A stretch of DNA of 54,758 nucleotides from assembly GCA_014728085.1 (NCBI GenBank), contig WJMF01000030.1, forward strand, positions 1 to 54,758, read 5' to 3'. This stretch comes from Candidatus Zhuqueibacterota bacterium (GTDB taxonomy: Bacteria; Zhuqueibacterota; Zhuqueibacteria; Residuimicrobiales; Oceaniaggregativiventaceae). The position numbers and the translations under genes are program-made. The notes below the pieces were generated by a model. That model saw only the letters and a list, made by a program, of their open reading frames with translations, made no database searches and was not told the DNA's origin. Below are positions 35,095 to 54,758 of this stretch, one piece after another; the stretch's first letter is position 1, and each line of letters begins with the position of its first letter.

Positions 35095-36285
35095 TTAACA
35101 GGTTTTATGTTTGGTTGTGGCTGTGTGTTGTCGTCCTTTCCAGGAAAAACGCCCGAATGTGCCGAACAGTCCCGCTATAACAACATAGGGTATTTGAATG
35201 AAAAACCATACCGGAAAATAGTCGAGTAGATCGAACCGCCGGAAATGGGAGGCGCTTTTCAAAGCGACGAGTCCCTCGATCAGGGCTTTTGCAAGAAAAC
35301 AAGAGATGATCAGCGACTGGTGCATACCGGTAATCAGAGCAAGGGGGACACCAATGAGAAGGGATGCATTGTTAATAAAAACGACGAAAAGATACAGGAA
35401 AAAGGGAAAATTGAGTTTGATCTGATAAGAACCATTGGATGCCCACCGTTTTCTCTGGTTGATAAAATCTCTTAGGGTCGGCTGGGGTTGAGAGGTGGTG
35501 TAAGATTTTCTGTCAGCTGCAAATACAGCTTTCCACCTTGTGGATTTTTGAATGAGCTGCAAGAGTAAAACATCGTCACCGGAAACTCGATGTGAAATTT
35601 TCGTATAACCCTTGACCTCTTTATAGGCTTTGTGACGATAGGCCAAATTTTGTCCCGAGGCAGCCAACGGTATGCCTAAATTGGCTGCTCCGGCATTCGC
35701 CCCCATAAGCTGTAAAAAATCAAAAGCCTGCAGGTTTTCCCACTTTGTCTGCTCTGATGCCTTTTGTCCGAATTGTGAAAAGCCAATGACAAAACCGATC
35801 TTATCGGTAAAATAGCTCACCATCGTTTCAATCCATTCGGGTTTAACCCGGCAATCTGCATCTGTGGAAAGGATGATTTCTCCATTTGCGTGTTTTACCG
35901 CTTGCTGCAATGCATATTTTTTGGGACTAAAGTTCGGCGGTGTTTCTTTTATATTGATTTGTTTTATAATTGAATGCTTTTTTTCAAATTGAGCCATAAT
36001 ATCAGTCGTTGTATCCGTAGAGCCGTCATTTGCAAGCAGAATCTGATAGCGGTTTTTATCATAAGTTTGATTTATAAGGTCGTCGAGAAGGGTTGCAATG
36101 ACCTTTTCTTCGTTTCTGGCTGCCACAACCACGGTCACTCTGTAGGGAAATTTGTTGGTTCCATTTTTCGGATAAAACAACCCGATGAGGAAAAAAAGGC
36201 CAATAAGGGAATATAAAACTGTAGAGGCCAGAATGATTTGAGCGATAATTTCCACCAGAGACCCAGCTCCTAGTTGGTTTTCCAT
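35095..36285 (-). CDS. Membrane GT2 glycosyltransferase, paralogue D of four
   Basis: A 396-residue processive-type GT2. One N-terminal helix precedes the catalytic domain with VVVAARNEEKVI, LANDGSTD, the DxD site STDADC, VSGDDVLLLQ and a QxxRW motif as NQRKRWAS. Three C-terminal helices follow. Between the first two sites it has FSPKKYAL, equivalent to TPKK or GKKxAL in this subfamily. Its start overlaps the end of paralogue C by 16 bases. Most similar by motif spacing to the three other GT2 genes in this array; sugar unknown. Confidence 0.86.
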   Translation of the reverse strand: MENQLGAGSLVEIIAQIILASTVLYSLIGLFFLIGLFYPKNGTNKFPYRVTVVVAARNEEKVIATLLDDLINQTYDKNRYQILLANDGSTDTTTDIMAQFEKKHSIIKQINIKETPPNFSPKKYALQQAVKHANGEIILSTDADCRVKPEWIETMVSYFTDKIGFVIGFSQFGQKASEQTKWENLQAFDFLQLMGANAGAANLGIPLAASGQNLAYRHKAYKEVKGYTKISHRVSGDDVLLLQLIQKSTRWKAVFAADRKSYTTSQPQPTLRDFINQRKRWASNGSYQIKLNFPFFLYLFVVFINNASLLIGVPLALITGMHQSLIISCFLAKALIEGLVALKSASHFRRFDLLDYFPVWFFIQIPYVVIAGLFGTFGRFSWKGRQHTATTKHKTC

Positions 36286-37367
36286 TCAAATTTTTTAAAT
36301 TGTCCCAGTGCTGCAAAGATAACAACATACGGAATATGTAATAGAAATGCGACCGGGAAATATTTTAAAAAATGCAATCGCTTCATGTGAAAGGCAAAGA
36401 CAAATAAAAGCATAAATTCTGCGATTGCCTTGACGGCCAGTGCCAGCGCGGGCAGTAATACGTGGCCCGTTAAGAGCATCCAGGGGAGGGTAAACAAAAG
36501 CAAAACATTGTAGAGATACAAAAGAACAAGTAGCGCTGTTTTTGTGATGGAGTAATGAAATCCTTTAGATGCATGCCGCAGGCGTTGATGATAAAACCGC
36601 TTAAAACTATCGATAAAACAGGTTGGTACCGCAGCACGGGGATCATAGGCATATTGAATGTTCCATTTTGTTTTGCCTTTTACTTGTTGCAGAAAAAGAT
36701 CATCATCTCCCGAAGCAAACATCTCTATTGATTTGAATCCATTTAGCTGAGTGAACACTTTTTTTCGATAGGCCAGGTTACGTCCGCTGCACGTTGCCGG
36801 CATTTTCCAGCCGGTCGTGGCAGCAGAAAGCGCAGCCAGGGCCAGTGAATCGAGGGCTTGCATATAATGCGACACTTTACGCAGTTGAGGATTTTCATAG
36901 GGCGAAAATCCGATCACCATCCCCGTTTGTGGTGAAAACCACCGCATCATTTGAGTTATCCAGCCAGGGGGCGGTACGCAGTCGGCATCGGTCAGAAGAA
37001 TAATTTCGCCTTTGGCTTTCTCAATCCCGAGAGCAATTGCTTGTTTTTTTGGTGAAATGAAATTGCGATTCGATGTACGGTAGACGGCTAATCGTTGCGG
37101 ATTCTTTTTCTCGGCAATATTTAAAACGGTTTCGGTACCATCTGTGGATTGATCATCGACGATGATGATATCATAAAGATGCCGCGGATAATCCTGTCTG
37201 AGCAATGCCGTCAACAATTCCCCTATATATTTGGCTTCATTGCGCGCAGCAACAACAATGGAGACTTGGGGTTGACGGGTATTATACGAACAGTTTGGTT
37301 TCTCAAGTCCGGCGAGGATAAAGATTAATCCTGCCGCATATAACAGAGACAACAGTAAAAAAAGCAT
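36270..37367 (-). CDS. Membrane GT2 glycosyltransferase, paralogue C of four
   Basis: A 365-residue GT2 with an N-terminal helix (residues 1-20), VSIVVAARNEAKYI, VDDQSTD, ISPKKQAIALGI, the metal site LTDADC, ASGDDDLFLQ and, in place of QxxRW, the variant HQRLRHAS with His for Trp. Three C-terminal helices close the protein. It begins nine bases after the stop of the Wzi-like gene, without a visible Shine-Dalgarno sequence, and overlaps paralogue D, so it is clearly in the same transcript. Confidence 0.86.
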   Translation of the reverse strand: MLFLLLSLLYAAGLIFILAGLEKPNCSYNTRQPQVSIVVAARNEAKYIGELLTALLRQDYPRHLYDIIIVDDQSTDGTETVLNIAEKKNPQRLAVYRTSNRNFISPKKQAIALGIEKAKGEIILLTDADCVPPPGWITQMMRWFSPQTGMVIGFSPYENPQLRKVSHYMQALDSLALAALSAATTGWKMPATCSGRNLAYRKKVFTQLNGFKSIEMFASGDDDLFLQQVKGKTKWNIQYAYDPRAAVPTCFIDSFKRFYHQRLRHASKGFHYSITKTALLVLLYLYNVLLLFTLPWMLLTGHVLLPALALAVKAIAEFMLLFVFAFHMKRLHFLKYFPVAFLLHIPYVVIFAALGQFKKFEWKTN

Positions 37368-37376
37368 ATCATGAAC

Positions 37377-38960
37377 TTAATAATTTATCGACAATTCAAA
37401 ACGAGCGATATGGTCAACAAATTGCTCACCCGCTATATTGTTTGCATTATCTGTATCCGAGTACGAATATGATATAGAGGCAAAAAAATCGCGCCGGATT
37501 TGATCTACAATTTTTAGGGTAAAGAGCCGTCTCCTTTCAATGATGCCTTGCAGAAATGACTTGCTAACACCCTCATCAGGTCTGGAAATCGTGTTAAAAT
37601 CGCCTTTGCCGTGCCGGACTTGTTCCATGGAGCCCTGAATTTGAACATCGCGATTGAGGCGATGGCTGACACGAGCGTAAACAACCTCAGAATTTGGTTT
37701 TGCCCAATGTCCGATTGGTTCTCCGGCATGCCGGTAGATATTGAGAGAGTCCCAATGGGTATACACATAGGGTTCGATGCGGGTATATTCAATACGCAGA
37801 TCGGTATTTTGAAGGGATAATGGATTCGCACATAGCCCTCCAAGGGTAAAGGCGAATTTATTGCCATAAAAGCGGGTAAGGTTTTGAGTCGTTGTCATAT
37901 CATCTATAAAAAATTCCGCATAAAGCGTCATGGCCGGCAGCGATGTCAGGGTGGCGTCGATACTCATCGCATTGTTGTCACGATCTCCCAGGTGGTGCTC
38001 AGCGACGTGGTATGGCATGATGGGATTCAGATACCCCAGCTCGATATCCCGTCCACCATAAATCAGGGTTTCAGTCGCGCCGAGATAAAATCCGGGTCGT
38101 ATTTTTATATCGAGACGGTGTGCAGCGAGGAATTTTGCGCCCAGATCATCCCTTAAAAACGCATGAAAGCTGGAAAAGGTAAAGCTGCTCATGCGGGTGC
38201 TGAGACGAAGCATGTCGACGGGTTTCATGTTGCCGGAGAGTGCCAGGTGTCCCCGGTAACCCGGTCCCCAGCTTTGACGATCCCGTCCGATTTGCACCCT
38301 AAGCCACGGTTTTTCGTAAACAAGATAGGCAATTGCCTGATCGCGAATCAGGTTGGAACCGGATACAACCGTTGGAGACCCCTGAGAGGGGTCGAACACT
38401 TCATCCTCTTCCTGGACATCATCTTTGCCTTTAATGATGGTATTGCGGGCCTGGCTGTAAAAACCAAGTTTTTGCCCAAGATGACCGCGTAAAATTCCGC
38501 CCAGCATGGTTTCCGAAAGGAGGGATTCTTCATTGTATTGATCGCTCCGGTTGACGATTACAGACTGAGCGGCGAGGGCATCGAGGTAAAAGAGGCTCTG
38601 TTTTTCACGATACTCGAGAAGATGGGGTTCTGAAGAGGATAAAAAAAGTTCGTCTGAAAAATCTGATTTCAACTGGTCGAATTGTCGCCAGTCTGTTCGG
38701 GAGAACTGATTCGGCTTGTTGCTGACGGCTTTTTCTATAGAGCGAATGATGGCTGAAAAGTTGGTTCGGCTCAGGGGCCGGGTACGCAGGTCATGAGTAG
38801 AAATGAGATTCATGGCTTCACACCGGTACAAAAAATCATAACCCCAGTAATTCAACGGAACGTTGACAGATTGACTTTCAAGCGTTGCGATGCGAAAAAG
38901 AAAGACGAGTAAAAAAATATATAGAAGACGATTCAACATAACCGGATCAAGTATATGCAT
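37377..38960 (-). CDS. Wzi-like outer-membrane beta-barrel (capsule assembly family)
   Basis: A 527-residue exported protein with a hydrophobic leader ending near LESQS. The remainder shows amphipathic strands with a GRDRQSWGPGYRGHLALSGN block (about residues 215-235), characteristic of capsule-assembly Wzi homologues, and ends in an aromatic residue (LSINY), a usual beta-barrel terminus. Wzi binds exported group 1 capsule at the cell surface; other members are simply outer-membrane glycan-associated barrels. Start is uncertain: ATG 38960 or ATG 38939, neither with a clear ribosome site. It lies between two GT2 genes, linking the array to the outer membrane. Confidence 0.7.
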   Translation of the reverse strand: MHILDPVMLNRLLYIFLLVFLFRIATLESQSVNVPLNYWGYDFLYRCEAMNLISTHDLRTRPLSRTNFSAIIRSIEKAVSNKPNQFSRTDWRQFDQLKSDFSDELFLSSSEPHLLEYREKQSLFYLDALAAQSVIVNRSDQYNEESLLSETMLGGILRGHLGQKLGFYSQARNTIIKGKDDVQEEDEVFDPSQGSPTVVSGSNLIRDQAIAYLVYEKPWLRVQIGRDRQSWGPGYRGHLALSGNMKPVDMLRLSTRMSSFTFSSFHAFLRDDLGAKFLAAHRLDIKIRPGFYLGATETLIYGGRDIELGYLNPIMPYHVAEHHLGDRDNNAMSIDATLTSLPAMTLYAEFFIDDMTTTQNLTRFYGNKFAFTLGGLCANPLSLQNTDLRIEYTRIEPYVYTHWDSLNIYRHAGEPIGHWAKPNSEVVYARVSHRLNRDVQIQGSMEQVRHGKGDFNTISRPDEGVSKSFLQGIIERRRLFTLKIVDQIRRDFFASISYSYSDTDNANNIAGEQFVDHIARFELSINY

Positions 38961-39023
38961 TGAATTTTTTGAAAATATATCAATTGAGGCTCAAAATTCA
39001 AAGGTCTTTTTTCGATCATCAGG

Positions 39024-40151
39024 TCAATTCGATAGCTTTCCCCTGCTATAGGATCGCTCTTTCCATTTATAACGGCCGATCATGCCGCTTATGGCGACAG
39101 GAGGTAAATAGAGGATCTGTAAACATTCTGCCAACAGGAAAGCTGACAGGCGAACGGGCTTTTCTATCTTTTTCAATGCATGGAATATAAGGCAGTAATC
39201 GGTTATCAGTTTAGTGCCTGCAAGCAGCATATAGGGCCACAACGGCAGTCCGAGCAGAAGGTGGAATGGAATTCCCAACAGTAAGGTGAAATAGACGATA
39301 AAACAGAACGACCCGATATATTTTATGTCCTTCCGGTATGCCCGGCTTTTTGATGCCCAGCGTATCCTTTGCCGAAAAAAACATCGCCAGGACGGACAGG
39401 GTTGAGTATAAACGATGGCATTGGAGTCTGTGAGAAAACGAATTTGATTTCCCGTTTCGCTGGCAATTTTTTGCAATAAAAGATCATCGTCACCGGAACC
39501 CCATGTTCCGATTTTATTAAATCCATTGATGGCTTGAAAGCTGTTTTTCCGGTAGGCAAAGTTTGCCCCATTGGCCAGAAAGGGCCTGTTCAGGCCGATA
39601 AATGCAGCGCCCGCAGCAACATACGCAAAGGAATCAAAGAATTCTATTTGAGTACGTAAACGATAATCGGCTTTAATCAGCAGCCAGGAAAGCACAGCGG
39701 CAACGTCAGGATTAAATCCGGATATCATGGTGGTGAGCCATTGGTCGGACATTGTGCAATCTGCATCGGTAGTCACGATAATTTCTGCAGAACTCGCTCT
39801 GATACCGGTTAAAATGGCTGCTTTTTTGGGGGTGATATCGCCCTGCAACGGCATGGATTCGAGATAACGGATCCGATTCGTGCGTTGAGCGAGTTGAATT
39901 GTCAATGGCTTTGTCTTGTCGCTGGAATCATCATCGACGACAATGATTTCATAACGGTTATGAGGATATCTTTGATCGGCCAGGTGGTGCAGGCAGGCCT
40001 CTATATGATCCTCTTCATTTCGGGCCGGTACGATTACGGCCACTGGCGGTTTTGCCGTTGAATGGCCGGGTCCCAGTCTTTTTAGACCTATATGCAATAA
40101 AAGAATAAAAAGGATATAAGACAGAATCAATGTAAAATAAAAAATAATCAT
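39024..40151 (-). CDS. Membrane GT2 glycosyltransferase, paralogue B of four
   Basis: A 375-residue enzyme with an N-terminal helix, VAVIVPARNEEDHI, VDDDSSD, ITPKKAAILTG, TTDADC, GSGDDDLLL and RQRIRWAS as the QxxRW-type acceptor motif. C-terminal helices start near residue 285. ATG 40151 is chosen; GTG 40157 is possible. It begins nine bases after the stop of the UPF0104 membrane protein, so the two are co-expressed. The four GT2 paralogues share all motifs in the same order and probably arose by duplication. Confidence 0.86.
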   Translation of the reverse strand: MIIFYFTLILSYILFILLLHIGLKRLGPGHSTAKPPVAVIVPARNEEDHIEACLHHLADQRYPHNRYEIIVVDDDSSDKTKPLTIQLAQRTNRIRYLESMPLQGDITPKKAAILTGIRASSAEIIVTTDADCTMSDQWLTTMISGFNPDVAAVLSWLLIKADYRLRTQIEFFDSFAYVAAGAAFIGLNRPFLANGANFAYRKNSFQAINGFNKIGTWGSGDDDLLLQKIASETGNQIRFLTDSNAIVYTQPCPSWRCFFRQRIRWASKSRAYRKDIKYIGSFCFIVYFTLLLGIPFHLLLGLPLWPYMLLAGTKLITDYCLIFHALKKIEKPVRLSAFLLAECLQILYLPPVAISGMIGRYKWKERSYSRGKLSN

Positions 40152-40159
40152 AGCCACTT

Positions 40160-41110
40160 TTACAATTTGGGACCATTCAAACGGCTTTTTAAAAGCAATA
40201 CCAGACCGAGCAGAGCCGGAATCAAAATATTGATCAGAAACAACAACAGCGAGGCATCAAAAGCCGCAGCGGCAACGACCTGGTAGCGGTGCAGATAAAA
40301 AATTGCTATACTTTCTCTCACGCCCAAATCGCCTATTGCATAGGGGAAAAAGATTTTAGTGGTCAGAATAGAAAAAGCAGTTATCAGGCTATCTGTGAAT
40401 TTGATTGAACTAAAAGCCATAATAAGAAGATTGAACTGAAAGGTAAAGGTAAGCACCAACAACAGCGAAAAAGTGCGCAAGGTTTTAGCTGTTTTTATTT
40501 CAATATAGTCTGTCGCCCGGACAAATTCTTTGAGTTTTTTATGTCTGGAGAAAAAGTTTTCAAATATCGTTTTATGTAAAAGATTTTTTACCCCTTGTGG
40601 GTTTCCAAGGAAACGATAGAGCAGAAAAAAAAGGATGGTTGTCATAAACAGCAATAACAGACAGAAGGGAGGGTGAATGAAAGTCCTAAAGTATAGAATC
40701 ATAGCGATGATCCCGGTTGAGAATACAATCGAGAGGGTGTATAATTTATCGATAAGCGTCAACCCCACCAGGCTGATTCGATGATTATCGCGGATAAAAA
40801 GAACCCGGGCGTATTCTCCCAGCCTGGCTGGTGTGACTATGCCCATTGTAAAACCGGCAAGAAGCGATAAAAGAATCTCTTTTCCCGGCGCCTTAACGTG
40901 TTGCCTGACCAGTGTTTCCCATTTTTTGTATTGACAGTAGATATTCAGCGGTAGCAAACCCGCGGCAACAAGTATGAGTTGAAAATTGGCATGATGAAAG
41001 GCAGAACGAATCTCACCCAAGTGGATTCGTTCTATCAAGAAAAAAAGAACAAAGAGAGTGAACAGAATTTTGAAAACAACAAGCGTTTTTTTTGCTGATA
41101 TTTTTGCCAC
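40160..41110 (-). CDS. UPF0104 / LPG-synthase-type transmembrane protein
   Basis: A 316-residue protein with about eight hydrophobic helices matching the membrane domain of lysylphosphatidylglycerol synthase (PF03706). The family motif is GFTMGIVTPARLGEYARVLFI. Stand-alone members accompany glycosyltransferases and are suspected lipid or glycolipid flippases; this role is inferred. I start at GTG 41110 (VAKISAKK), 16 bases after the methyltransferase stop; ATG 41194 would overlap that gene by 68 bases and add unrelated residues. Confidence 0.75.
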   Translation of the reverse strand: MAKISAKKTLVVFKILFTLFVLFFLIERIHLGEIRSAFHHANFQLILVAAGLLPLNIYCQYKKWETLVRQHVKAPGKEILLSLLAGFTMGIVTPARLGEYARVLFIRDNHRISLVGLTLIDKLYTLSIVFSTGIIAMILYFRTFIHPPFCLLLLFMTTILFFLLYRFLGNPQGVKNLLHKTIFENFFSRHKKLKEFVRATDYIEIKTAKTLRTFSLLLVLTFTFQFNLLIMAFSSIKFTDSLITAFSILTTKIFFPYAIGDLGVRESIAIFYLHRYQVVAAAAFDASLLLFLINILIPALLGLVLLLKSRLNGPKL

Positions 41111-41126
41111 AGAAAGCAGTTTCCGA

Positions 41127-41942
41127 CTAGGTTTTTTGTGCCATAATAAACCAGGTTGGATTGATGAAGCGATTGAACGCTCCGTTAGAATCATCAACAA
41201 GGTTTAGGAGTTTTGAATAGAGTCCAATAGTATTGAGAATTTGAATAATTTTCAAGTGCCAATTTCGATTCCATATGGAATGCGGCTGTTGTTGTGCGAA
41301 GGTTAAGGCTGCTTGATTTACGAATTTCCATTGCAAGCTGTTTTGTTTTAACAGCCGATCGAGCTGGTCGAGGGAGAACAATTCAGCATGATCTTGCTTG
41401 TCCGGCTCTGTTACCTGTAGCCATGAAGAGAGAAGAGTTTTTAGCGATTTTCGTTTTAATAAAGCGACAAAGGGCAATGAGTAGTGCGGATCACAGAGGA
41501 TATTCAGAAAAGCCAGGCGGTTTGGTGTGGAAAGGTATAGCCAGCCACCGGTCTTTAGTGAGCGACAGATCATGCTCATGGCCTTTGCCGGATTTTGAAT
41601 ATGTTCGATTACATCGACGAGCAGAGCCGCGTCGTAAACACCTGCTTTGATGTGTGCGGCATCGACACCTACAGGATGAAAGCAAATTCCGCTGTCGATC
41701 TTTTTTAAGAGTTCCGGCCGAATAAAAGGATCGTAGGCATCCACTCTGGCACCCTGACTCGTCAACAGAGCGGCGATTTTTCCACTACCGCATCCGGCGT
41801 CAATAATTCGGCTATTTTGAAGATGTATTTTCTTTTTTAGCAGATAAAGTACAAGTTTGCCGCGGTAATTCGCGTCGGCTTGATACTGATCCCACAATTT
41901 GTGCGATGTTGTTTTGCGGATTTGCTGCATTGATTCTACCAT
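41127..41942 (-). CDS. Class I SAM-dependent methyltransferase
   Basis: A 271-residue Rossmann-fold methyltransferase. Motif I is IIDAGCGSGKIAALL, the acidic ribose-binding residue is in DAYDPF, and motif IV/post-I is LLVDVIEHIQNPAKAM with a following GGWLYLSTPN. The order resembles UbiG/COQ3-like enzymes, but many glycan and lipid methyltransferases share it. A late basic and aromatic region (about 190-270) is likely to bind acceptor. ATG 41942 overlaps the end of GT2 paralogue A by seven bases. Confidence 0.85.
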   Translation of the reverse strand: MVESMQQIRKTTSHKLWDQYQADANYRGKLVLYLLKKKIHLQNSRIIDAGCGSGKIAALLTSQGARVDAYDPFIRPELLKKIDSGICFHPVGVDAAHIKAGVYDAALLVDVIEHIQNPAKAMSMICRSLKTGGWLYLSTPNRLAFLNILCDPHYSLPFVALLKRKSLKTLLSSWLQVTEPDKQDHAELFSLDQLDRLLKQNSLQWKFVNQAALTFAQQQPHSIWNRNWHLKIIQILNTIGLYSKLLNLVDDSNGAFNRFINPTWFIMAQKT

Positions 41943-43018
41943 TCAGTTTTGTAAAAAAAAGCCTTTGGTGCACAGATCAGATGATAAAGGGGGTAGATAA
42001 AATTCCACAGAAAAAAATCATAAAGCTTGAGAGGTTTATCCAGTCGATTAGAAATTTTTTTCAAAGCTGTATAATCGGCTATCCATTTTAGAATTAGAAA
42101 AAGTACGATTGCCTTATTTACAGCAATCCCAATGATAGCGCCTCCCCATAGTATCAGATTGGTGGTATGATAAAAAAGATAAACGATTTGAGTTTTGTTT
42201 TTGTATTGTTTTCCGGCGGAGAGATGACGGCTTTTCTGTTTGAAAAAGAGGCGCCACGAAGCAGGTCCCTGTGCGGGCATATGACTTTTCGGCTCGAATT
42301 GATATTTTAGCTGCAGATTGGTGCCAACGGCTATGGTTTGAAGGATAAAATCGTCGTCTCCGGAAAGCGTATCCGGCAGGAGGGTATAGCCTTTTATTTT
42401 ATTCAGGGCGTTTTCTGTTATGGCAATGTTCCTGCCGCAGGCCGTAACCGGATGATTGTGAGCAATAGACGCGGCGGAAACCAGAGCCGTTGCCATGCTG
42501 TCCAGGTGTAAAAAGCGGTTCAGGGTGCTGTTTGTGGAAACCTGGTATGAAAAACCGGCGATAGCACCGGTGGAATAATTGTATGCTTTTACTATCGTGC
42601 GTAACCAGGAGGGCGGAGGTGTACAATCGGAATCTGTATAGAGCACGAGCTCTCCGCGCACCTGTTGGATGGCGAGGTGTAAGGCTTCTTTTTTTGAGCT
42701 TTTCCATCCCAGGCTGTATTGTTTGGTAATAAAGGTCAGGTTATGGTATTGCTTTGAGGCTAAAGCCAGAATTTCGATGGTTTTATCTTTTGAGCCGTCA
42801 TCAACAACGATACACTCAAATTGATTCTTGTCATAGTCCTGCCTCAAACAGGCATTTAAACAGGTTTGAATGGTCTCTTGACTATCCCTGGTGGCGATAA
42901 CAATTGAAACAAAAGGTGTTTGTTTACCGTCATAAATTCTGGGTGATTTGATGATGCCCCAAATGAGATAGGAGACAATGCTCAGATAGATTATTGTAGA
43001 GATTACAAGAATTGTCAA
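41936..43018 (-). CDS. Membrane GT2 glycosyltransferase, paralogue A of four (first in the array)
   Basis: A 360-residue GT2 with N-terminal helix, VSIVIATRDSQETI, VDDGSKD, SSKKEALHLAI, the metal site YTDSDC (DSD), LSGDDDFIL and KQKSRHLSAG at the QxxRW position, again with His for Trp. I use TTG 43018: GGAG lies seven bases upstream and the start then aligns with the other three GT2 genes. The longer frame to 43072 has no ribosome site. The divergent gap to the transglycosylase gene is 168 bases. Confidence 0.85.
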   Translation of the reverse strand: MTILVISTIIYLSIVSYLIWGIIKSPRIYDGKQTPFVSIVIATRDSQETIQTCLNACLRQDYDKNQFECIVVDDGSKDKTIEILALASKQYHNLTFITKQYSLGWKSSKKEALHLAIQQVRGELVLYTDSDCTPPPSWLRTIVKAYNYSTGAIAGFSYQVSTNSTLNRFLHLDSMATALVSAASIAHNHPVTACGRNIAITENALNKIKGYTLLPDTLSGDDDFILQTIAVGTNLQLKYQFEPKSHMPAQGPASWRLFFKQKSRHLSAGKQYKNKTQIVYLFYHTTNLILWGGAIIGIAVNKAIVLFLILKWIADYTALKKISNRLDKPLKLYDFFLWNFIYPLYHLICAPKAFFYKTEW

Positions 43019-43186
43019 TTTATTACTCCGAATGCTGAATGCGAAAGTAAAAATTATCCTTACAATGCGCAAGAAATTTAATCAACAAAAATATTGTAAA
43101 AGGTTAAAAAAATTATTAAATTTTTTCAAGATCACTTTTATCTGCTAGTAAAAACGAGGTGGAAGAAATCAGGGGGAAAGGAGAAA

Positions 43187-45530: not shown

Positions 45531-47009
45531 TTATTGCAATGCAATTGATTTTGTGACCCCGATTATTTCGGGCGGCGATGGAGAAATGTTATCCGTATAA
45601 TCATCCATCAAAATCAGGTACATGCTGGAGGATGTTCCTCCCTTGTTGGCGCCAAGGGTAATGGTGCCGGGATGATACTCTTTTTTGTATATTTTATAAG
45701 ACGTATCTTCGCTTTCTATGGTCATATTGGTTTCTTGCCACGGCAATAGCCACGTCGGTAACGAGTCGGTATATCGTGCATCATAAGCGACATACAGGGC
45801 AACACTTTTATTAACATAGAAGGAGATAAATTCCGATCCGAACAGGTCTTTGTCGTTATTGGCCGTCTCTATCCAGGTCAATTGGTTGAGTGTTTCAGGC
45901 AGCAGAGTGATAAGATAAGGCCGGTCGCTGTATACCGGATCACCAATTTGTTTTGCTTTTGTGGTGTAATTTTTTCTGCTTATGCCATCGACAATGAATT
46001 CCCTGGTAAATTGATAGCCAATCGTTGTGTCTTCCAGGACATCAGCTATATCGAGCCGATCTTTAAGGTTTTGAATGGTCAGGGAATAGGAGCGATTTAA
46101 TCTGTGAGCTGTGGTCTGTAATTCAACGGTTTTAAGATCCTTCAAAAGGTTTGATTTAAGGATCTTAATTTCTGGTGTAATGCTATAGTTGTCAAGATGT
46201 TCAGCTGATTGTTGATCCAACGCCTTGTTAAAGGACGCGTACACCTTGTTGACACATGTGACGGCAACTGATTCCACCTTTGGAGGGCCGGCATCGGGTT
46301 TAGGATCACCCTCTATATAAATTCTTAGATTTGAATAAACCGGACCGGGTTGTCCGCAATAACCCCATATAAGGTTATCCCGGCCGAGTAAAATAATTTT
46401 ATAAGCCCGGATTTGGTCTTCATGAGGGAGTGTTGAAATTAACTCATCGTCTACAAAACAGTAAATATTGTTATGGGTCCAGGTTACTTTGAAGGTGTAT
46501 GTTCTGGTAGAGTCCCATATGGCTTCGAGCATGACATCGTCAGTTGTGCGGGAATCGATATGATTTGGAGCAGCCTGGAAGCGAAATCCAGCCAGGCCCT
46601 CGCCCAGGGAATATTCATGATAGGTGCGAATATTCCACCAGGCATTATCTGTTTGAAAGAGGTTTTTATTGTTTGACGGGTGTATAACTGAATATAAATT
46701 GATAATTTGATGCTTTAAATTTGTGGCCTGATGTGCAGGGTCAAAGTTGCTAACATCTACCATGAGCGTGCCTTTAAACGGAATAAGCCGTGACAATTCT
46801 ATTTTTAATTGACTGTTGGTGTTTGTGGCCTTCCATCCGGTAGTCGAGATAAATTTTCCATCGGTATTGGTGATTTGTTCTCCTTCAGCGGGCATTGCAT
46901 TCGTTAAGGGGTGGTAATAAAACAAACGGCGATGAACGGGCTGTGCTGAAAGGGATTGCAGAGTCAGCAAGATCGTCAGCATAAAAAATATAAGACTGTT
47001 GTTGTTCAT
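45531..47009 (-). CDS. Secreted protein with LamG-like and Ig-like domains, function unknown
   Basis: A 492-residue exported protein. A signal peptide (MNNNSLIFFMLTILL, cleavage near LSAQ) is followed by a concanavalin-like/LamG-type region (about residues 25-235: WWNIRTYHEYSLGEG, FKVTWTHNNIYCFVDDELI). Next comes a segment like bacterial Ig or SbsA repeats (about 245-345: VESVAVTCVNKVYASFNKALD) and an unassigned beta-rich C-terminal third containing DLFGSEFISFYVNKS. ATG 47009 is supported by AGAGGA. It is transcribed away from the GH2-like gene. The LamG-type part often binds glycans. Confidence 0.6.
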   Translation of the reverse strand: MNNNSLIFFMLTILLTLQSLSAQPVHRRLFYYHPLTNAMPAEGEQITNTDGKFISTTGWKATNTNSQLKIELSRLIPFKGTLMVDVSNFDPAHQATNLKHQIINLYSVIHPSNNKNLFQTDNAWWNIRTYHEYSLGEGLAGFRFQAAPNHIDSRTTDDVMLEAIWDSTRTYTFKVTWTHNNIYCFVDDELISTLPHEDQIRAYKIILLGRDNLIWGYCGQPGPVYSNLRIYIEGDPKPDAGPPKVESVAVTCVNKVYASFNKALDQQSAEHLDNYSITPEIKILKSNLLKDLKTVELQTTAHRLNRSYSLTIQNLKDRLDIADVLEDTTIGYQFTREFIVDGISRKNYTTKAKQIGDPVYSDRPYLITLLPETLNQLTWIETANNDKDLFGSEFISFYVNKSVALYVAYDARYTDSLPTWLLPWQETNMTIESEDTSYKIYKKEYHPGTITLGANKGGTSSSMYLILMDDYTDNISPSPPEIIGVTKSIALQ

Positions 47010-47202
47010 TAAATTATCCTCTTGTTTTGGCTCAATATTGTGGCATTTGTGCGGATTTTTCGATACGGCATGCCACACTTAAAGGATTAAAGAAACGTAA
47101 AATAAAGAGTTAAGCGACCACCACCATTTTTAAAATTATATGCGTTGTTTTAAGCAATTTTCAGACCAAAACGTTGATTGAGTACTTTTGCGTTACACAA
47201 TA

Positions 47203-47231
47203 TTGACAACAGTAAATAAAGTCCTTATATT
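47203..47231 (+). promoter_or_regulatory. Strong sigma70-type promoter for the GH2-like gene
   Basis: TTGACA (47203-47208) is a perfect -35 hexamer, followed by 17 bases and TATATT (47226-47231), five of six matches to the -10 consensus. It predicts a transcript start near 47238, about 22 bases before ATG 47260. This is the best promoter match I found in the window and lies in the 250-base divergent gap. Nothing else in that gap stands out. Confidence 0.75.
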
Positions 47232-47259: not shown

Positions 47260-49782
47260 ATGTCACTGATAAAATATTACAATCTGCCAGGCTATGTTAA
47301 CTGGTTATTCGCGTTTTTTTTGCTGATCATGATTTTACCGGGACGAGGCGATTTTGCTTTGCCACGGTCTTTGCAGTTTAGCAGGATTCAGCTTGAACGC
47401 CCGTCCGGTGGAATCGCACTTGATGGTGAGTGGGAACTCAGAGCGATGAATGGCGATAGCCGGGAAACCGTTGTTTTACCCTCATATCTGGATCGAGTCG
47501 GTCATTTTACCCTGATTAAGACGTTTCGAGTCGATTCCTCTGCATCCGCAGAGGAATATCTGTTTCACATTGGCGGGATTGAGGGACAATGTTCTGTTTA
47601 TTTGAATCATCAGTTTATCGGCGGCCGTGCTTTGGCCCGTTTTCCGTTTACGCTATCAGCGGGAGCTGAAAATGTCTTTACAGACAAACAAAATCAACTT
47701 TCCATTGAGGTTGACAATCGTCTGGATTATAAAGAAACCATTCCATTAAAGGCAAGACTAAACGGTTTGCCAATCCATGGTAAAGGCGTTTTGGGGTCTG
47801 TGGAGCTCGTCCCCCTGTCAACCCCTTTTACCAAATCTGTATTGCTCGATTCGATCGAGATCAGTGGGAATCGTCTCCTCTTTGATTTGAATCTAAAGCT
47901 GCGCTCGCCGGAAAATAAAGCCGTGGTTGCGCGCATACAGCTTTTAACGGAACGATTCAGGCGGCCGCTGTGGCAACAGCAGCACACCATCTCTTCGCCG
48001 GCAGCAAGGGATGGGGATGAGTTTATGGAACTGGGCAACATCTCGGTGCCGTTTTATCCCTGGCAGCCCGGCTCTCCGCATTTTTATACACTTGAGGTTC
48101 GATTATGGCAGCAAAACCGGGATGATCAGAGCGATGTGTTTCGCGTCGATTTTGGCGTGCCCGCAACGAATGAGCCAAGGGTTCCGGAAGATATACGGGC
48201 CATCGGCTATGTACTGGATAAACAGCTGGCCGGATTATCTCCCGATACGTTGAAAGCTCGGCTTTTTGACGATTTGCGAATGATCAAGCAAATGGGCGCC
48301 AATACCGTTTATTGTTACGCCTCTTATCCCCTGCCTCCGTTTTTAAGTGTTTGTGATGAGTTGGGATTATACGCACTGGTAGAACTTCCGCTTGCTGATA
48401 TTCCAACCGATTTTCTAAAGCGGCAATCTTTTATCCAGCTTTTTGAGAATCATTTACATCGTTTCATAGAGACGTTTAAGGTTCATCCCAGCGTTCTGGC
48501 CTGGGGTTTGGGGAATGGATTTGCACCCGATCATCCGTTATCTCAATCTTTTGTCAGGCGAATGGTCGGGAAGCTCGGAGCCTGGGATGGGCGACCGGTC
48601 TATTTATCGCCGGCACTGCCGGCGACGTCGCCATCTTTGGGAGCGGATTTCTATATTGTAGATGTTATCGACCAAAATAATCAGCCGGACGAAACGGCAC
48701 TCTCCTCCCTGGGGCGGAATGTTTTACCGCGTATCGTCGCCGCCGTTGAAATTGGCGAGGAAGATCAGCGCTATTTAGAAAAGCATCATGCCCATAAAAT
48801 ACGGGAAATTTTTGCCGATCTTTCAGAACGCTCCTGGAAGGGCGGACTCCTGGTAAGCCCGATTTATGACTGGTACGGGGACGCTTGTTATTCTTATTGG
48901 GGAGCCGGGCTGGAGATGGATAAACATATTACCGGTTTGATCAATGCCGACGGCGTCGAACGACCGGCCTTTCAGGTGGTCAGGTCATTTTTTTCAAGTC
49001 GTTCGCTGATCGATATTTTATATGAGGATGTACCGCCAGAATCTTCATTGTTATTTCAGATTTTGGCCCTGACTCTTTTTGCTTTATTTTTACTTTTATT
49101 AAAAAACGACAAACGGCTGCAAGTCTATTTAAAAAGAGTATATAGATTTCCGCATGGATTTATTGTTGATCTGCAGGAAAATCGAAAGGTCAATGCGTTT
49201 TTAACGCTTTACGTCGGCACGACATTAATTTTATCTCTTGCGATTATTTTCAGCAGCTGGATATATTGTTTGAAAGACAACTTTCTCTTTGGGAAGGTTT
49301 TGATTTACTTATTCTCGGAACCGGAATCGCAGCGTCGGGTTATTCAGTTGATTTGGCATCCGCTCTGGCTGTTGTTTTTTCTTTTTGTTGTTCTGTTTGC
49401 CGGGATTGTTTTTTCAGCCGCATTATTGCGTATTTATTTTTTCATCACAAAGAGGACGATATATTTTCGACAGACCTTTTCTTTTTGTGTCTGGATAAAT
49501 TCTCATATATTGTTTACCTTACCGTTGGCTATTGTATTCATCAAGGCCTACCAGGCAAAAGAATTTCATTTGTTTATAAACATATATCTCGTTGTAATTC
49601 TGTTGTGGACAATCGGCAGGTATTTTAGGGGATTTAGATTGTTTTTACAGCTCGGTTTTCTGCAGACGAGTATGGTCATTGGCGTTGTTCTGTTGTTCGT
49701 TTTATCTGCCGGGTATTACTTGCATATACAGAGCGCATTTATTTCATACCTTCGCTATTTTTTAATGATGATCGGTTCATGA
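47260..49782 (+). CDS. GH2-fold membrane protein, acid/base glutamate missing
   Basis: An 840-residue protein. After a signal anchor (about residues 12-30), residues about 35-590 follow the GH2 plan. There is a sugar-binding domain (LDGEWELR, HIGGIEGQCSVYLNHQFIGG), an Ig-like domain, and a TIM barrel beginning near IKQMGANTVYCYASYP. The acid/base motif that normally reads NE is LGNGF, with Gly420 for Glu. The putative nucleophile Glu497 (AAVEIGEE) is kept at the usual 77-residue spacing. The C-terminal 230 residues carry about six membrane helices (with NRKVNAFLT between the first two), resembling Yip1-like membrane domains. It is probably a periplasmic sugar sensor or scaffold rather than a hydrolase. 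Confidence 0.75.
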   Translation: MSLIKYYNLPGYVNWLFAFFLLIMILPGRGDFALPRSLQFSRIQLERPSGGIALDGEWELRAMNGDSRETVVLPSYLDRVGHFTLIKTFRVDSSASAEEYLFHIGGIEGQCSVYLNHQFIGGRALARFPFTLSAGAENVFTDKQNQLSIEVDNRLDYKETIPLKARLNGLPIHGKGVLGSVELVPLSTPFTKSVLLDSIEISGNRLLFDLNLKLRSPENKAVVARIQLLTERFRRPLWQQQHTISSPAARDGDEFMELGNISVPFYPWQPGSPHFYTLEVRLWQQNRDDQSDVFRVDFGVPATNEPRVPEDIRAIGYVLDKQLAGLSPDTLKARLFDDLRMIKQMGANTVYCYASYPLPPFLSVCDELGLYALVELPLADIPTDFLKRQSFIQLFENHLHRFIETFKVHPSVLAWGLGNGFAPDHPLSQSFVRRMVGKLGAWDGRPVYLSPALPATSPSLGADFYIVDVIDQNNQPDETALSSLGRNVLPRIVAAVEIGEEDQRYLEKHHAHKIREIFADLSERSWKGGLLVSPIYDWYGDACYSYWGAGLEMDKHITGLINADGVERPAFQVVRSFFSSRSLIDILYEDVPPESSLLFQILALTLFALFLLLLKNDKRLQVYLKRVYRFPHGFIVDLQENRKVNAFLTLYVGTTLILSLAIIFSSWIYCLKDNFLFGKVLIYLFSEPESQRRVIQLIWHPLWLLFFLFVVLFAGIVFSAALLRIYFFITKRTIYFRQTFSFCVWINSHILFTLPLAIVFIKAYQAKEFHLFINIYLVVILLWTIGRYFRGFRLFLQLGFLQTSMVIGVVLLFVLSAGYYLHIQSAFISYLRYFLMMIGS

Positions 49783-49871: not shown

Positions 49872-52800
49872 GTGTATTTATCTGAATTAAACATCATTGG
49901 TTTCAAGTCATTTGCGCGCAAGATACAACTTCGGTTTAACAAGGGGATAACCGGAGTCGTGGGGCCGAATGGATGCGGCAAAAGCAATATCGTCGATGCT
50001 ATCCGTTGGGTAATGGGGGAACAGCGAAGCGGTGTCTTGCGAAGCGAGCGAATGGAAAATGTTATTTTTAATGGTTCCGAAAGCGCCAAACCGGTTGGGA
50101 TGGCAGAAGTCTCCCTGACCATTCAGAACAATAAAAATATTTTACCCATAGAATATACTGAAGTGGTTATTACGCGGCGTCTGTTCAGATCAGGCGAGAG
50201 TCAATATCTCATCAACGGTAATCTGTGTCGTCTTAAGGATATTCTGGATCTTTTTATGGATACCGGGGTCGGACCGGGGACCTATTCGGTGATTGAACTG
50301 CAACAAGTAGAAAAGATTCTAAATGGCAAGGCAGATGAACGGCGGGCCATATTTGAAGAAGCAGCGGGTATAACAAAATACAAGTTGAGAAGAAAAGCAA
50401 CCTTTCGAAAACTTGAGGCAACTGAAAAAGATCTCATTCGGATTGAAGACATCATGTCTGAAGTCGAGAAGAATGTACGTTCCTTGCGCCGCCAGGTCAG
50501 CAAAGCGGAACGCTACCAGACAATGACCAGTGAACTCCGCGATCTTGAGATTCAGGTCAGCACGCACGAGTATTCAAAAATTTTAAATGAACTGGATCCG
50601 CTGCAAACCAGGTTTGAACTTGTACGGGACGACCGGGAAGCGTCCTCATCCACTCTTGCCACGTTTGAAGCAAAATATGAAGAGACGCGCAGTCAGTTAC
50701 TGGGTCTTGAAAAGAAATTATCCGCTGAGCAAATGGAATTTAATGCGTTTGAGAAGGAGATTCAAAAACTCGATGAACGGATTTTGGTCAACAAGGAGCG
50801 TCTTCGCTCTCTGGAGGAAAATAAAAACAGATATCTTCTCGAGCAAAAGAGTTTTAACCGGCGGTCCGGAGAGTTGAAAGAATCTTTAGAAGAGATAACA
50901 ACCCGTATGAGCGGGCTCGAGGGCGTATTTGATGAAAAGAAACTGAATTATCAGGAATTGGATGCAAAATATCAGACCGTGCGGGAAAAGTACAATCTGT
51001 TGAGAGAACAAGTGCGCCGGCACGAAGAGGATGTTTTACGAATCATTGAAGAGATCAGCCGTCTGCAGAACAGGGGGGAGCGATTAAAGGCTAATGAAGA
51101 AAATCTCAGCAGCCGGCTTGGACAATTGGATCAGGAAGATAATGAAGCGGAAGAAAAGAACAGAGATCTGGTAACTCGTTTGACTCGGGTTCGCTCGGAA
51201 GAGGAAAAATACAATCAAACCCTGAATGAAAAACGCAACCAGTTGGAGAGTAAGGAAAAACAGATAGAAGAATCCCTGCGATCTTATGAAGGCTTGCAAA
51301 AAATCGACAGCCAGGATGAAAATAAAATTGAGGTTTTGAACAATCAGGCGGCCTTGATCAGGCGTTTAATCGAAAATTTCGAGGATTATCCTGCCGGTGT
51401 TCGTCATCTGTTAACGGAAAAGTCCGAAGAATTGAAAAATTTTGGTCCTTTTGCCAATATCCTTCATATTGATGAATCTTATCGTCTGGCTATCAGTGCT
51501 GCACTGGGAGATGCAGCGACGTTTTTACTGGTGGACAATGCGGATCGAGCCTTGACCGGTATTGAGATGCTCAAGCAGGATAAAAAGGGAGTGGTCACTT
51601 TTCTCCCCATACAGCAGTTACGCTTTGATTTTGTCAGTCATCCGCAGCTGGATGATTTGGGGGTTATAGGATGGGCGGATGAATTGGTGGAGTATAAACC
51701 CGAGTTTGAGCAAGTGGTAAAGGCGTTATTGGGAAAATTTCTGGTTGTCCAGGATCAGGCGACAGCAACGCGAATACTCGATGATGCAAAACAATATGGC
51801 ATTAATCTGGTGACGTTGGGAGGTGAGGTATTGACCTTTTGGGGGTTGATTCGCGGCGGCGCCAAAAGCAAACAACAAGCAGAACTCATTGGGCGTCAGG
51901 AACAACTGGCATCATTGCTGGCTCAAATTGAGGAGATCAAAAAGCGACGGGAACAGCGCTTGCTGGTGATGTCTGAACTTGAGGAGAAAGCTCATGCAGA
52001 CAAAATCGATGCCGAGGAATTACACACGCAACTGAAATCATTAGAAGAAGAGTTAGGGGCAAAGCGCATCGAATTGGGCCGGTTGACATTCGAGGAACAA
52101 ACGCTTAACGAAGCAAAGGTAAAACGCGCCAGCGAAAGACAACGCCTGCTTGAACAGATGGGTCAGGTGGATCGCAACCTTAAAGAACAGAATTATGGCA
52201 CAGAGGATCAACAAGCCAGGCGGCAGCAATTTGCCAAACAGGCACAGGAAAAGAATGAAACGCTTAAAAGCCTGGAAAAAGAGCTCAACACGATGGCCGA
52301 GAAGGTCAAAACGGCAAGCGTTGAGCTGGCCAGAGAACAAAGCGATTTTGATGCCTTAAAACGCGAACAAGACTCTGTAAAACGGCAGATTTCTGAAACC
52401 GAAAGTCTCATTCAAACCCGGGAATCGGAATCTAAAAGTGCTGAACGGGAAGCCCGGGAACTCGGGGAAGTCAATGCTGAATATGCCGACAGAATCGAGA
52501 GTTTGAAAAAGAAGACGGATATTGTTCGGGAACGAATTGAGACATTAGAAGTAGAACAGTATGAGGCCAATACAAAAATTGCAGATCAGGAGAGACAAAT
52601 CCGGCAGGCGCGCACAAAGGCTGAAGAGCTTTCCGAATCTATCCATCATCATGAATTGCGAGTCTCTGAATTGAAAATGCGGGCACAAAACCTTGTGTCT
52701 CGAATAAAAGAGGAATACGACTATCAGCTTGAACGAAAAGAAATCGATGATCAATTGCCGATTGATGACATGTCGGAAAAGATGAATCAGCTAAAAGAGC

Positions 52801-53453
52801 GCATAAAGGACTTTGGACCGGTAAACCTGCTTGCCTTAAAAGAGTATGAGCAAGAAAAAAACAGAATGGAGTTTCTACAGAATCAGAAAGATGATCTGAT
52901 TTCAGCGAAAAAGAACCTGGTTCATACCATTGATACGATCAACCAGACTGCACGAAAACAGTTTTTGGAGACATTTGAAAGTGTACAACAAAATTTCAGC
53001 AAGGTTTTCAAATCTTTCTTCGAGGGAGGCCGGGCGAGTCTTATTTTGCGGGAAGGAATTGATCCGCTGGAAGCAGACATTGATATTTATGCGACTCCTG
53101 GTGGTAAACGGTTATCCGCTCTAACACTGCTCTCAGGCGGAGAAAAATCCCTGACGGCGATTTCTTTACTGTTCGCAATTTATTTGGTTAAACCAAGCCC
53201 TTTTTGCATATTTGATGAAGTTGATGCCCCCCTTGACGACCAGAACGTCAGACGATATACGGCGGCACTTGAAGATTATGCTCAGGAAACACAATTTATA
53301 TTGGTGACACATAATAAACTTAGCATGAGAGCAGCACAGCAGTTATATGGTGTTACGATGCAGGAGGAAGGGGTTTCCAAAGTTGTTTCTGTTCAATTTG
53401 AAAAAGAAGAAGAAAAATTGGTTCCCAGCCAGGCAGAACAACAAGAGAATTAA
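49872..53453 (+). CDS. smc: Chromosome segregation/condensation ATPase SMC
   Basis: A full-length 1,193-residue SMC. Walker A is GPNGCGKSN (residues 31-39), followed by a long coiled coil and a hinge near residues 510-640 (DYPAGVRHLLTEK, then LGDAATFLLVDNADRA). The returning coiled coil leads to the ABC signature LSGGEKSLTAISLLF and Walker B CIFDEVDAPLDD. SMC loads with ScpA/ScpB, neither in the window, to compact DNA. Start is GTG 49872 (MYLSELNIIGFKSF), with only a weak GGGAAA leader. An 11-base palindrome, GTACG-T-CGTAC, lies at 49814-49824. The next gene follows after 11 bases. Confidence 0.97.
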   Translation: MYLSELNIIGFKSFARKIQLRFNKGITGVVGPNGCGKSNIVDAIRWVMGEQRSGVLRSERMENVIFNGSESAKPVGMAEVSLTIQNNKNILPIEYTEVVITRRLFRSGESQYLINGNLCRLKDILDLFMDTGVGPGTYSVIELQQVEKILNGKADERRAIFEEAAGITKYKLRRKATFRKLEATEKDLIRIEDIMSEVEKNVRSLRRQVSKAERYQTMTSELRDLEIQVSTHEYSKILNELDPLQTRFELVRDDREASSSTLATFEAKYEETRSQLLGLEKKLSAEQMEFNAFEKEIQKLDERILVNKERLRSLEENKNRYLLEQKSFNRRSGELKESLEEITTRMSGLEGVFDEKKLNYQELDAKYQTVREKYNLLREQVRRHEEDVLRIIEEISRLQNRGERLKANEENLSSRLGQLDQEDNEAEEKNRDLVTRLTRVRSEEEKYNQTLNEKRNQLESKEKQIEESLRSYEGLQKIDSQDENKIEVLNNQAALIRRLIENFEDYPAGVRHLLTEKSEELKNFGPFANILHIDESYRLAISAALGDAATFLLVDNADRALTGIEMLKQDKKGVVTFLPIQQLRFDFVSHPQLDDLGVIGWADELVEYKPEFEQVVKALLGKFLVVQDQATATRILDDAKQYGINLVTLGGEVLTFWGLIRGGAKSKQQAELIGRQEQLASLLAQIEEIKKRREQRLLVMSELEEKAHADKIDAEELHTQLKSLEEELGAKRIELGRLTFEEQTLNEAKVKRASERQRLLEQMGQVDRNLKEQNYGTEDQQARRQQFAKQAQEKNETLKSLEKELNTMAEKVKTASVELAREQSDFDALKREQDSVKRQISETESLIQTRESESKSAEREARELGEVNAEYADRIESLKKKTDIVRERIETLEVEQYEANTKIADQERQIRQARTKAEELSESIHHHELRVSELKMRAQNLVSRIKEEYDYQLERKEIDDQLPIDDMSEKMNQLKERIKDFGPVNLLALKEYEQEKNRMEFLQNQKDDLISAKKNLVHTIDTINQTARKQFLETFESVQQNFSKVFKSFFEGGRASLILREGIDPLEADIDIYATPGGKRLSALTLLSGGEKSLTAISLLFAIYLVKPSPFCIFDEVDAPLDDQNVRRYTAALEDYAQETQFILVTHNKLSMRAAQQLYGVTMQEEGVSKVVSVQFEKEEEKLVPSQAEQQEN

Positions 53454-53464
53454 AAGGAGGAATT

Positions 53465-54758
53465 ATGTTTTTACGACATAGTATCTATTGTCTTTTCCTG
53501 GTTCATTTATTGTTGGGAACAGCATTATTTGCCCAGACGGCTGACAGCACAAGGCAGGCCGAAAACAACGACAAGATACCGGTAGCGCTGGATTATTCCC
53601 GTTTTCCCTTTGCTGACAGCCTGACTTTTTTCGAGTTGTATGGTACCTTCCCGCGCAGTATGCTTGCTTATGTTAAAGATGACGATCGTTTTAAGGCGGA
53701 ATTTACCGTTACTGCTCAGGTTTTTTCCAAAGATTCCCTGCAGTCGACGAAAAAATGGCAAAGTGTCAATTATGCAGACAGTTTGGAAGAGATCAATATT
53801 TATCAGCGGCTTTATTTTATTAATAATTTCGTCCTTGAAACCGGGACGTACGATGTAAAAATAAATGTAGAGGATGTCAATTCTACCCACTTTTCAGAGC
53901 ACACATTTCCGGTAGAAATAAGCGGTTTTACGACCGGCAAGCTTCGGATCAGCGATATTGAAATCAGTTCCAGGATTTCACGTGACACGACAAAAAATGT
54001 TTTTACAAAAAACAATTTCAAGGTTATGCCGCATCCGACCGGGATGTACGGATTGAGTATTCCAATATTGTACATGTATTCGGAAATCTATAATCTAAGT
54101 GAAGCCCCGGACACGGAAGAGGATAGATTTAGGGTTGCTTATAAAATTTATGACGCCGATGGCCAGGTGGTCAAGGAAATGGGCCCTCTGGATAAACAAA
54201 AAGCAGGAGCGTCGGCGGTTGAAGTAAATGGTATTAATGTTGCAACCCTGGTTTCGGGTCCTTATAAGATCATCCTGGAAGTTGAAGACCCTGCAAGCGG
54301 GCAACAGGCTGTTACCGCCAGACGATTCTTTGTATACCGCGAAGACGATTTTAAAGAGGGTGGTGTAAAATTCCAAAAAACGGAACAGGTGGCTCAAAAA
54401 GGCAGTCCTGGCCTCGATGCAGACCGTTATGATTCGATGGACGAGGATGACATCGATGATGAGTTTGACTATACGAGATATATGAATACGAAAGAAGAAC
54501 GCAAGACCTACAAAAAGCTCAATCTGGAAGGGAAGCGCAAGTTTATTAAAGGGTTCTGGGCCAATCGCGATCAAACACCGGGTACGCCTGTTAACGAATT
54601 TAAACGAGATTATCTGACCCGGGCCAATTACGCAAATCAAAAGTTCAAGGGCACGTTCAGAGATGGCTGGAAGACTGACCGGGGCAGAGTTTTATTGCTT
54701 TACGGCTTTCCCGACGAAGTCGACCGGCACCCCTTCTCCGCGGATACCAAGGCATACG
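53465..54758 (+). CDS. GWxTD-domain protein (N-terminal part, cut by window edge)
   Basis: The first 431 residues of an exported protein, open to the window end. A signal peptide (MFLRHSIYCLFLVHLLLG, cleavage near FAQ) follows AAAAGGAGG. Residues about 30-300 are beta-rich and unassigned (FPFADSLTFFELYGTFPRSM). Near the end comes the GWxTD region: FIKGFWANRDQTPGTP, TRANYANQKF and the DGWKTDRGRVLLLYGFPDE signature (Gly-Trp-x-Thr-Asp). These proteins are common in Calditrichota, KSB1 and Acidobacteria-type genomes and have no settled function. It follows smc by 11 bases. Confidence 0.85.
   Translation, partial: MFLRHSIYCLFLVHLLLGTALFAQTADSTRQAENNDKIPVALDYSRFPFADSLTFFELYGTFPRSMLAYVKDDDRFKAEFTVTAQVFSKDSLQSTKKWQSVNYADSLEEINIYQRLYFINNFVLETGTYDVKINVEDVNSTHFSEHTFPVEISGFTTGKLRISDIEISSRISRDTTKNVFTKNNFKVMPHPTGMYGLSIPILYMYSEIYNLSEAPDTEEDRFRVAYKIYDADGQVVKEMGPLDKQKAGASAVEVNGINVATLVSGPYKIILEVEDPASGQQAVTARRFFVYREDDFKEGGVKFQKTEQVAQKGSPGLDADRYDSMDEDDIDDEFDYTRYMNTKEERKTYKKLNLEGKRKFIKGFWANRDQTPGTPVNEFKRDYLTRANYANQKFKGTFRDGWKTDRGRVLLLYGFPDEVDRHPFSADTKAY

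Follow-up and report, generated by a model that had tools for sequence, protein, structure and literature searches.

We found that a gene in a 54,758-nucleotide stretch of contig WJMF01000030.1 from a Candidatus Zhuqueibacterota bacterium (this whole stretch is called the window below) encodes a protein that belongs to a pseudo-glycosidase family of KSB1/Calditrichota genomes; this family is old and has been inherited vertically within the phylum. The reading frame reported in a first-pass annotation of the sequence is intact, and the strong promoter match described there was found again. In an AlphaFold model of the protein, residues 11 to 24, within the hydrophobic N-terminal stretch, are helical and lie in a low-confidence region.

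47203 to 47231, + strand, sigma-70-like promoter match, TTGACA-17-TATATT (11 of 12 consensus positions; a consensus match only)
47260 to 49782, + strand, gene for the pseudo-GH2/Yip1-like membrane protein, 840 aa (open reading frame; 37 full-length homologues in two classes)
47290 to 47346, + strand, N-terminal hydrophobic helix, residues about 11 to 29, signal peptide or signal anchor (from the sequence)

The ectodomain has a GH2 fold

Three domains of the GH2 layout were assigned in the ectodomain.

47392 to 47820, + strand, GH2 N-terminal jelly-roll domain, residues about 45 to 187 (Glyco_hydro_2_N in 24 of 29 family members; strands in the model)
47827 to 48159, + strand, GH2 Ig-like domain, residues about 190 to 300 (Glyco_hydro_2 in 24 of 29 members)
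48172 to 48999, + strand, degenerate GH2 TIM barrel, residues about 305 to 580 (Glyco_hydro_2_C in 28 of 29 members; Foldseek matches to GH2 enzymes)

Taken alone, the window protein has a weak Pfam match to Glyco_hydro_2_C (E=1e-4, barely above the cut-off) and one to NCBIfam GalB (E=3e-9) that is far below the cut-off of that model. When the family profile was compared with the PDB, positions 65 to 598 matched GH2 enzymes (beta-glucuronidases) with E values down to 7.5e-52. The first-pass annotation had proposed a GH2 layout and, as a check, a comparison of the predicted structure with GH2 templates; in this comparison, the AlphaFold model (mean pLDDT 76) matched GH2 enzymes of the PDB by Foldseek with E=2.4e-30 and a TM-score of up to 0.72. 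The profile and structure searches together bear out the three-domain fold with a TIM barrel.

Both catalytic glutamates are lost throughout the family

The alignment comprised 37 full-length family members and 12 intact GH2 enzymes, the latter drawn from the window's genome and its relatives. The columns were anchored on VTDFGAP in two loci (L043 and L073), set against VSEFGAD in the intact enzymes, and on LIDEVSFA in a third (L053).

48517 to 48519, + strand, codon 420 (Gly), GH2 acid/base column (Glu in 12 of 12 intact GH2 enzymes and in 1 of 37 family members)
48730 to 48732, + strand, codon 491 (Arg), GH2 nucleophile column (Glu in 12 of 12 intact GH2 enzymes and in 1 of 37 family members), where barrel strand 7 stops
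48748 to 48750, + strand, codon 497 (Glu), the nucleophile candidate of the first-pass annotation, outside the nucleophile column and not conserved

The placement of Gly420 at the acid/base position, for which a homologue search and alignment had been suggested as a check, agrees with both the alignment and the model, in which barrel strand 4 (residues 412 to 421) carries this residue at its C-terminal end. Family members have Gly (17 of 37), Asp (8), or Asn (5) in this column, and the one Glu already listed. In contrast, the claim that Glu497 is a retained nucleophile did not survive. The nucleophile column of the intact enzymes falls on Arg491, where barrel strand 7 (residues 488 to 492 in the model) ends and where the family has Ser (10 of 37), Ile (7), Arg (6), Gln (4), Asp (3), or Glu (1), while Glu497 sits in a short separate strand (residues 495 to 497) and is Glu in 2 of 29 homologues. 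Alignment with the intact enzymes and the AlphaFold model rule out Glu497 as the nucleophile; since the nucleophile column is Arg491, the 77-residue spacing between positions 420 and 497, which had been read as matching beta-galactosidase-type GH2 enzymes, is coincidental.

Other residues of the active site are also missing. Asn419 and His354 are present in all 12 intact enzymes and His318 and Trp533 in 10 of the 12; none of these four columns is kept in the family, and the His or Trp of the intact enzymes is never the commonest residue at positions 318, 354, and 533. The losses of both catalytic Glu residues, the preceding Asn, and three other active-site residues span the 37 homologues, with isolated exceptions. 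Scaffold residues W58, W268, Y276, G369, P377, D537, and G559 are identical in the family and the intact enzymes. It had been proposed that one catalytic residue was lost while its partner persisted. We found that both are lost family-wide, and therefore the protein belongs to an old pseudo-GH2 family, as opposed to being an enzyme half inactivated in a single genome. On a quick tree with long branches, the family and the intact GH2 enzymes were parted by one branch with 100% support, which fits a loss of activity that took place once, long ago.

Conservation is highest in a predicted cytosolic loop of the membrane domain

About six membrane helices had been expected from the sequence, and in the model the barrel is followed by six long, hydrophobic helices (residues 597 to 616, 646 to 673, 701 to 729, 748 to 765, 767 to 796, and 800 to 825).

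49048 to 49779, + strand, six-helix Yip1-like membrane domain, residues about 597 to 840 (AlphaFold model pLDDT 86; Pfam Yip1 in 12 of 29 homologues)
49108 to 49194, + strand, most conserved segment, cytosolic loop 617 to 645, RxxxxPHGFxxDLxENRK (identity; positive-inside charge pattern)

The Yip1-like assignment rests on the homologues, because the window protein itself has no match to the Yip1 profile at E 0.1. The matches of the 12 homologues to PF04893 have E values of up to 1 (the best being 2e-7) and span profile positions 2 to 172 of 173; most family members score below the curated Yip1 cut-off, and one, from genome G026, lies above it at 34.2 bits. In a fold search of the membrane-domain model against the PDB, whose library may hold no Yip1 structure, there was no significant match. 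The AlphaFold model and the distribution of charges predict a feature of Yip1 proteins, five membrane helices after a cytosolic N-terminal segment, here residues 617 to 645. The ectodomain is probably periplasmic, and the charge pattern is consistent with this topology, as basic residues cluster in the loops that are cytosolic if the GH2 part is in the periplasm.

Mean pairwise identity is 51% in loop 617 to 645, the best-conserved stretch of the protein (RxFxxPHGFYxDLxENRK), compared to 29% in the jelly roll, 19% in the Ig-like domain, and 25% in the barrel. Thus, the strongest constraint is on the cytosolic face. To our knowledge, few roles of the Yip1-like membrane family have been described in bacteria.

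The family occurs in related genomes and fits vertical inheritance

Full-length, co-linear homologues of about 810 to 920 residues, with 24 to 31% identity, occur in related genomes. About 40 of the 61 phylum (KSB1/Calditrichota) genomes carry the gene, in one copy each, including members of a second class (families f14 and f15). This distribution gives good support to the earlier suggestion of a retooled, membrane-fused pseudo-GH2 protein under selection. We also scanned all species genomes of GTDB release 220 with the membrane-motif pattern, a single peptide pattern that distant relatives elsewhere could escape, and found 19 relatives; wherever a title gives a taxon more specific than "bacterium", it is KSB1 or Calditrichota. 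Over 22 genomes, pairwise identities within the family correlated with those of SMC (r = 0.88), as fits vertical inheritance. In one KSB1 genome (L049:5746-8327 and L061), the gene is split into two overlapping reading frames of 696 and 164 aa by a frameshift or a sequencing error in the membrane part.

The gene lies upstream of smc in most informative genomes

The pseudo-GH2 gene is followed in the window by smc, which has a role in chromosome organization, and by a gene for a GWxTD-domain protein.

49872 to 53453, + strand, smc, 89 bases downstream of the pseudo-GH2 gene
53465 to 54757, + strand, GWxTD-domain protein, runs off the window (Pfam GWxTD E=1.5e-12; conserved after smc)

Among the 39 genomes in which the contig permits a view of the neighbors, 28, from both classes, have the gene just upstream of smc, with zero to two genes between. 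A GWxTD-domain protein is often encoded next after smc, and this order is kept in much of the phylum, even where the pseudo-GH2 gene is absent; an open-access search found no literature on the GWxTD domain. In 19 phylum genomes that lack the pseudo-GH2 gene, smc is present, and therefore the gene is dispensable in those lineages. Where the contig permits, the slot upstream of smc in such lineages holds unrelated genes, and the free-standing Yip1-like or GH2-like gene expected there under a relic hypothesis was not found. The adjacency to smc may reflect old gene order only and is no proof of a common function.

Other neighbors recur in parts of the phylum. In several families, the gene immediately before the pseudo-GH2 gene codes for a protein of 650 to 690 aa with a HELGH zinc-protease-like motif and no Pfam match (L033:3848-5881, L032:3774-5825, L034:3949-5901, and L031:1-1800; also L090, L092, and L093); this upstream gene overlaps the pseudo-GH2 gene by 4 bases in L033 and still lies close to smc in genomes without the pseudo-GH2 gene. 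At L039, L043, L066, and L073 (family f8 and neighbors), the gene is followed by one for a CHAT-domain protein and not by smc. On the other side, the window has a divergent neighbor gene (45531 to 47078, - strand) for a secreted-looking protein of 515 aa with no Pfam match, a homologue of which lies near the same place in genome G001 (L063). Also adjoining this region (36270 to 43072, - strand) is a cluster of three glycosyltransferase-like genes, a methyltransferase-like gene, and genes for membrane proteins.

Proposed role of the protein and alternatives

We computed the family, its fold, the loss of both catalytic glutamates, its distribution, its synteny, and the location of its conservation; from these we infer a role. 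We give about even chances to the reading that the pseudo-GH2/Yip1-like protein, as a member of an old family, is a non-catalytic scaffold or accessory subunit. Its ectodomain, a GH2 fold that probably lies in the periplasm and has no functional active site, is joined to a Yip1-like domain of six helices in the inner membrane. The ectodomain would dock to a putative envelope partner and would position or regulate the Yip1-like membrane module, and the membrane domain might, via the conserved cytosolic loop, assemble with or regulate a complex in the membrane or the cytosol. Such a role is favored by the finding that the strongest constraint is on the cytosolic face while the sugar pocket is not conserved as a site. 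A precedent is YknW, of the Yip1 family, which modulates how an ABC transporter complex assembles (PMC4887032). There is also an analogy in the ectodomains of rBAT and 4F2hc (SLC3), which have a glycosidase fold, have been called fake or orphan glucosidases, and serve a membrane protein complex (PMC8537225).

It is possible, if rather unlikely, that the protein is a glycan receptor or sensor, a role that the first-pass annotation had suggested. The dead barrel or the jelly roll would still bind a polysaccharide, either of the envelope or from outside, and occupancy would be relayed to the cytosol by the Yip1-like domain. The fold is kept across the whole family, the conserved cytosolic loop is at hand for output, and aromatic residues that are new relative to intact GH2 enzymes occur at columns 317 (Trp in 30 of 37; Tyr in the window protein) and 448 (Tyr in 31 of 37). 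There is also an analogy in alpha-Klotho, a membrane co-receptor with a glycosidase fold in which both catalytic Glu residues are substituted, by N239 and S872 in the human protein (PMC8302672). However, the GH2 sugar-contact columns H318, H354, N419, and W533 are lost with no new polar set in their place, divergence is more rapid in the ectodomain than in the membrane domain, and no signaling domain or regulator consistently adjoins the gene in the loci compared. A wider version, which we consider improbable, is a phylum-typical transmembrane receptor or regulator that would pass an envelope-glycan or wall signal inward through the PHGFYxDLxENRK segment of the loop, where it would reach some process of the cytosol connected with smc.

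We think it quite improbable that the protein is still an enzyme, acting through other residues, such as Glu375 with Asp537, or by substrate-assisted catalysis. E375 is found in 34 of 37 family members and D537 in all 37, and in some members an Asp occurs close to the acid/base position (D420 in 8 of 37 and D422 in 11 of 37). However, intact GH2 enzymes keep E375 and D537 to the same degree, and both are therefore ancestral scaffold or support residues. The second class has three full-length proteins, and as none of them retains E375, this residue is a poor candidate for a replacement catalyst; there is also no new conserved acidic pair. The reading as a decaying gene or an assembly or ORF artefact, to which the one split gene and the absence from some lineages could be credited, is already refuted by conservation, since the frame stays open for more than 800 aa in 37 different genomes although identity is only about 27%, and invariant residues occur in all domains.

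Significance and comparison with known systems

Dead glycosidase folds on membrane proteins are of a known kind. For the combination of GH2 and Yip1, we found no report in an open-access library and no model in NCBIfam, where members score as beta-galactosidases or beta-glucuronidases (the window protein far below the cut-offs). Automatic annotation would probably label the window protein a beta-galactosidase, and a conserved pseudo-enzyme annotated as an enzyme would inflate the enzyme counts for the phylum. The family adds a case from bacteria, known from two classes or more, in which a multi-pass membrane protein has a repurposed glycosidase fold for its ectodomain, and its short cytosolic motif is a place to seek the function of the Yip1-like domain.

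The family has the jelly-roll, Ig-like, and TIM-barrel layout and the scaffold residues in common with GH2 enzymes (beta-galactosidase/beta-glucuronidase; PDB 6ncw, 6xxw, and 6d8k). Unlike these enzymes, it has lost the acid/base Glu, the nucleophile Glu, and the sugar-site residues, carries a fused membrane domain, and forms a separate clade. With the Yip1 family (PF04893; for example, Bacillus YknW), it shares a predicted set of five helices after a cytosolic P-x-x-F segment, but it is divergent, has one more helix before these, and carries a large ectodomain of GH2 fold, whereas the open frames of ordinary Yip1 proteins, among those listed for relatives, are about 185 to 380 aa long. The likeness to rBAT and 4F2hc, as glycosidase-fold ectodomains of a membrane complex, is an analogy only, since those animal proteins are not homologous and have a GH13 fold, one helix, and a separate catalytic transporter subunit. 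Likewise, alpha-Klotho resembles the window protein only by analogy, as a membrane glycosidase fold with its catalytic Glu residues replaced; it is a GH1-type, single-pass, animal FGF co-receptor whose domain architecture is not homologous.
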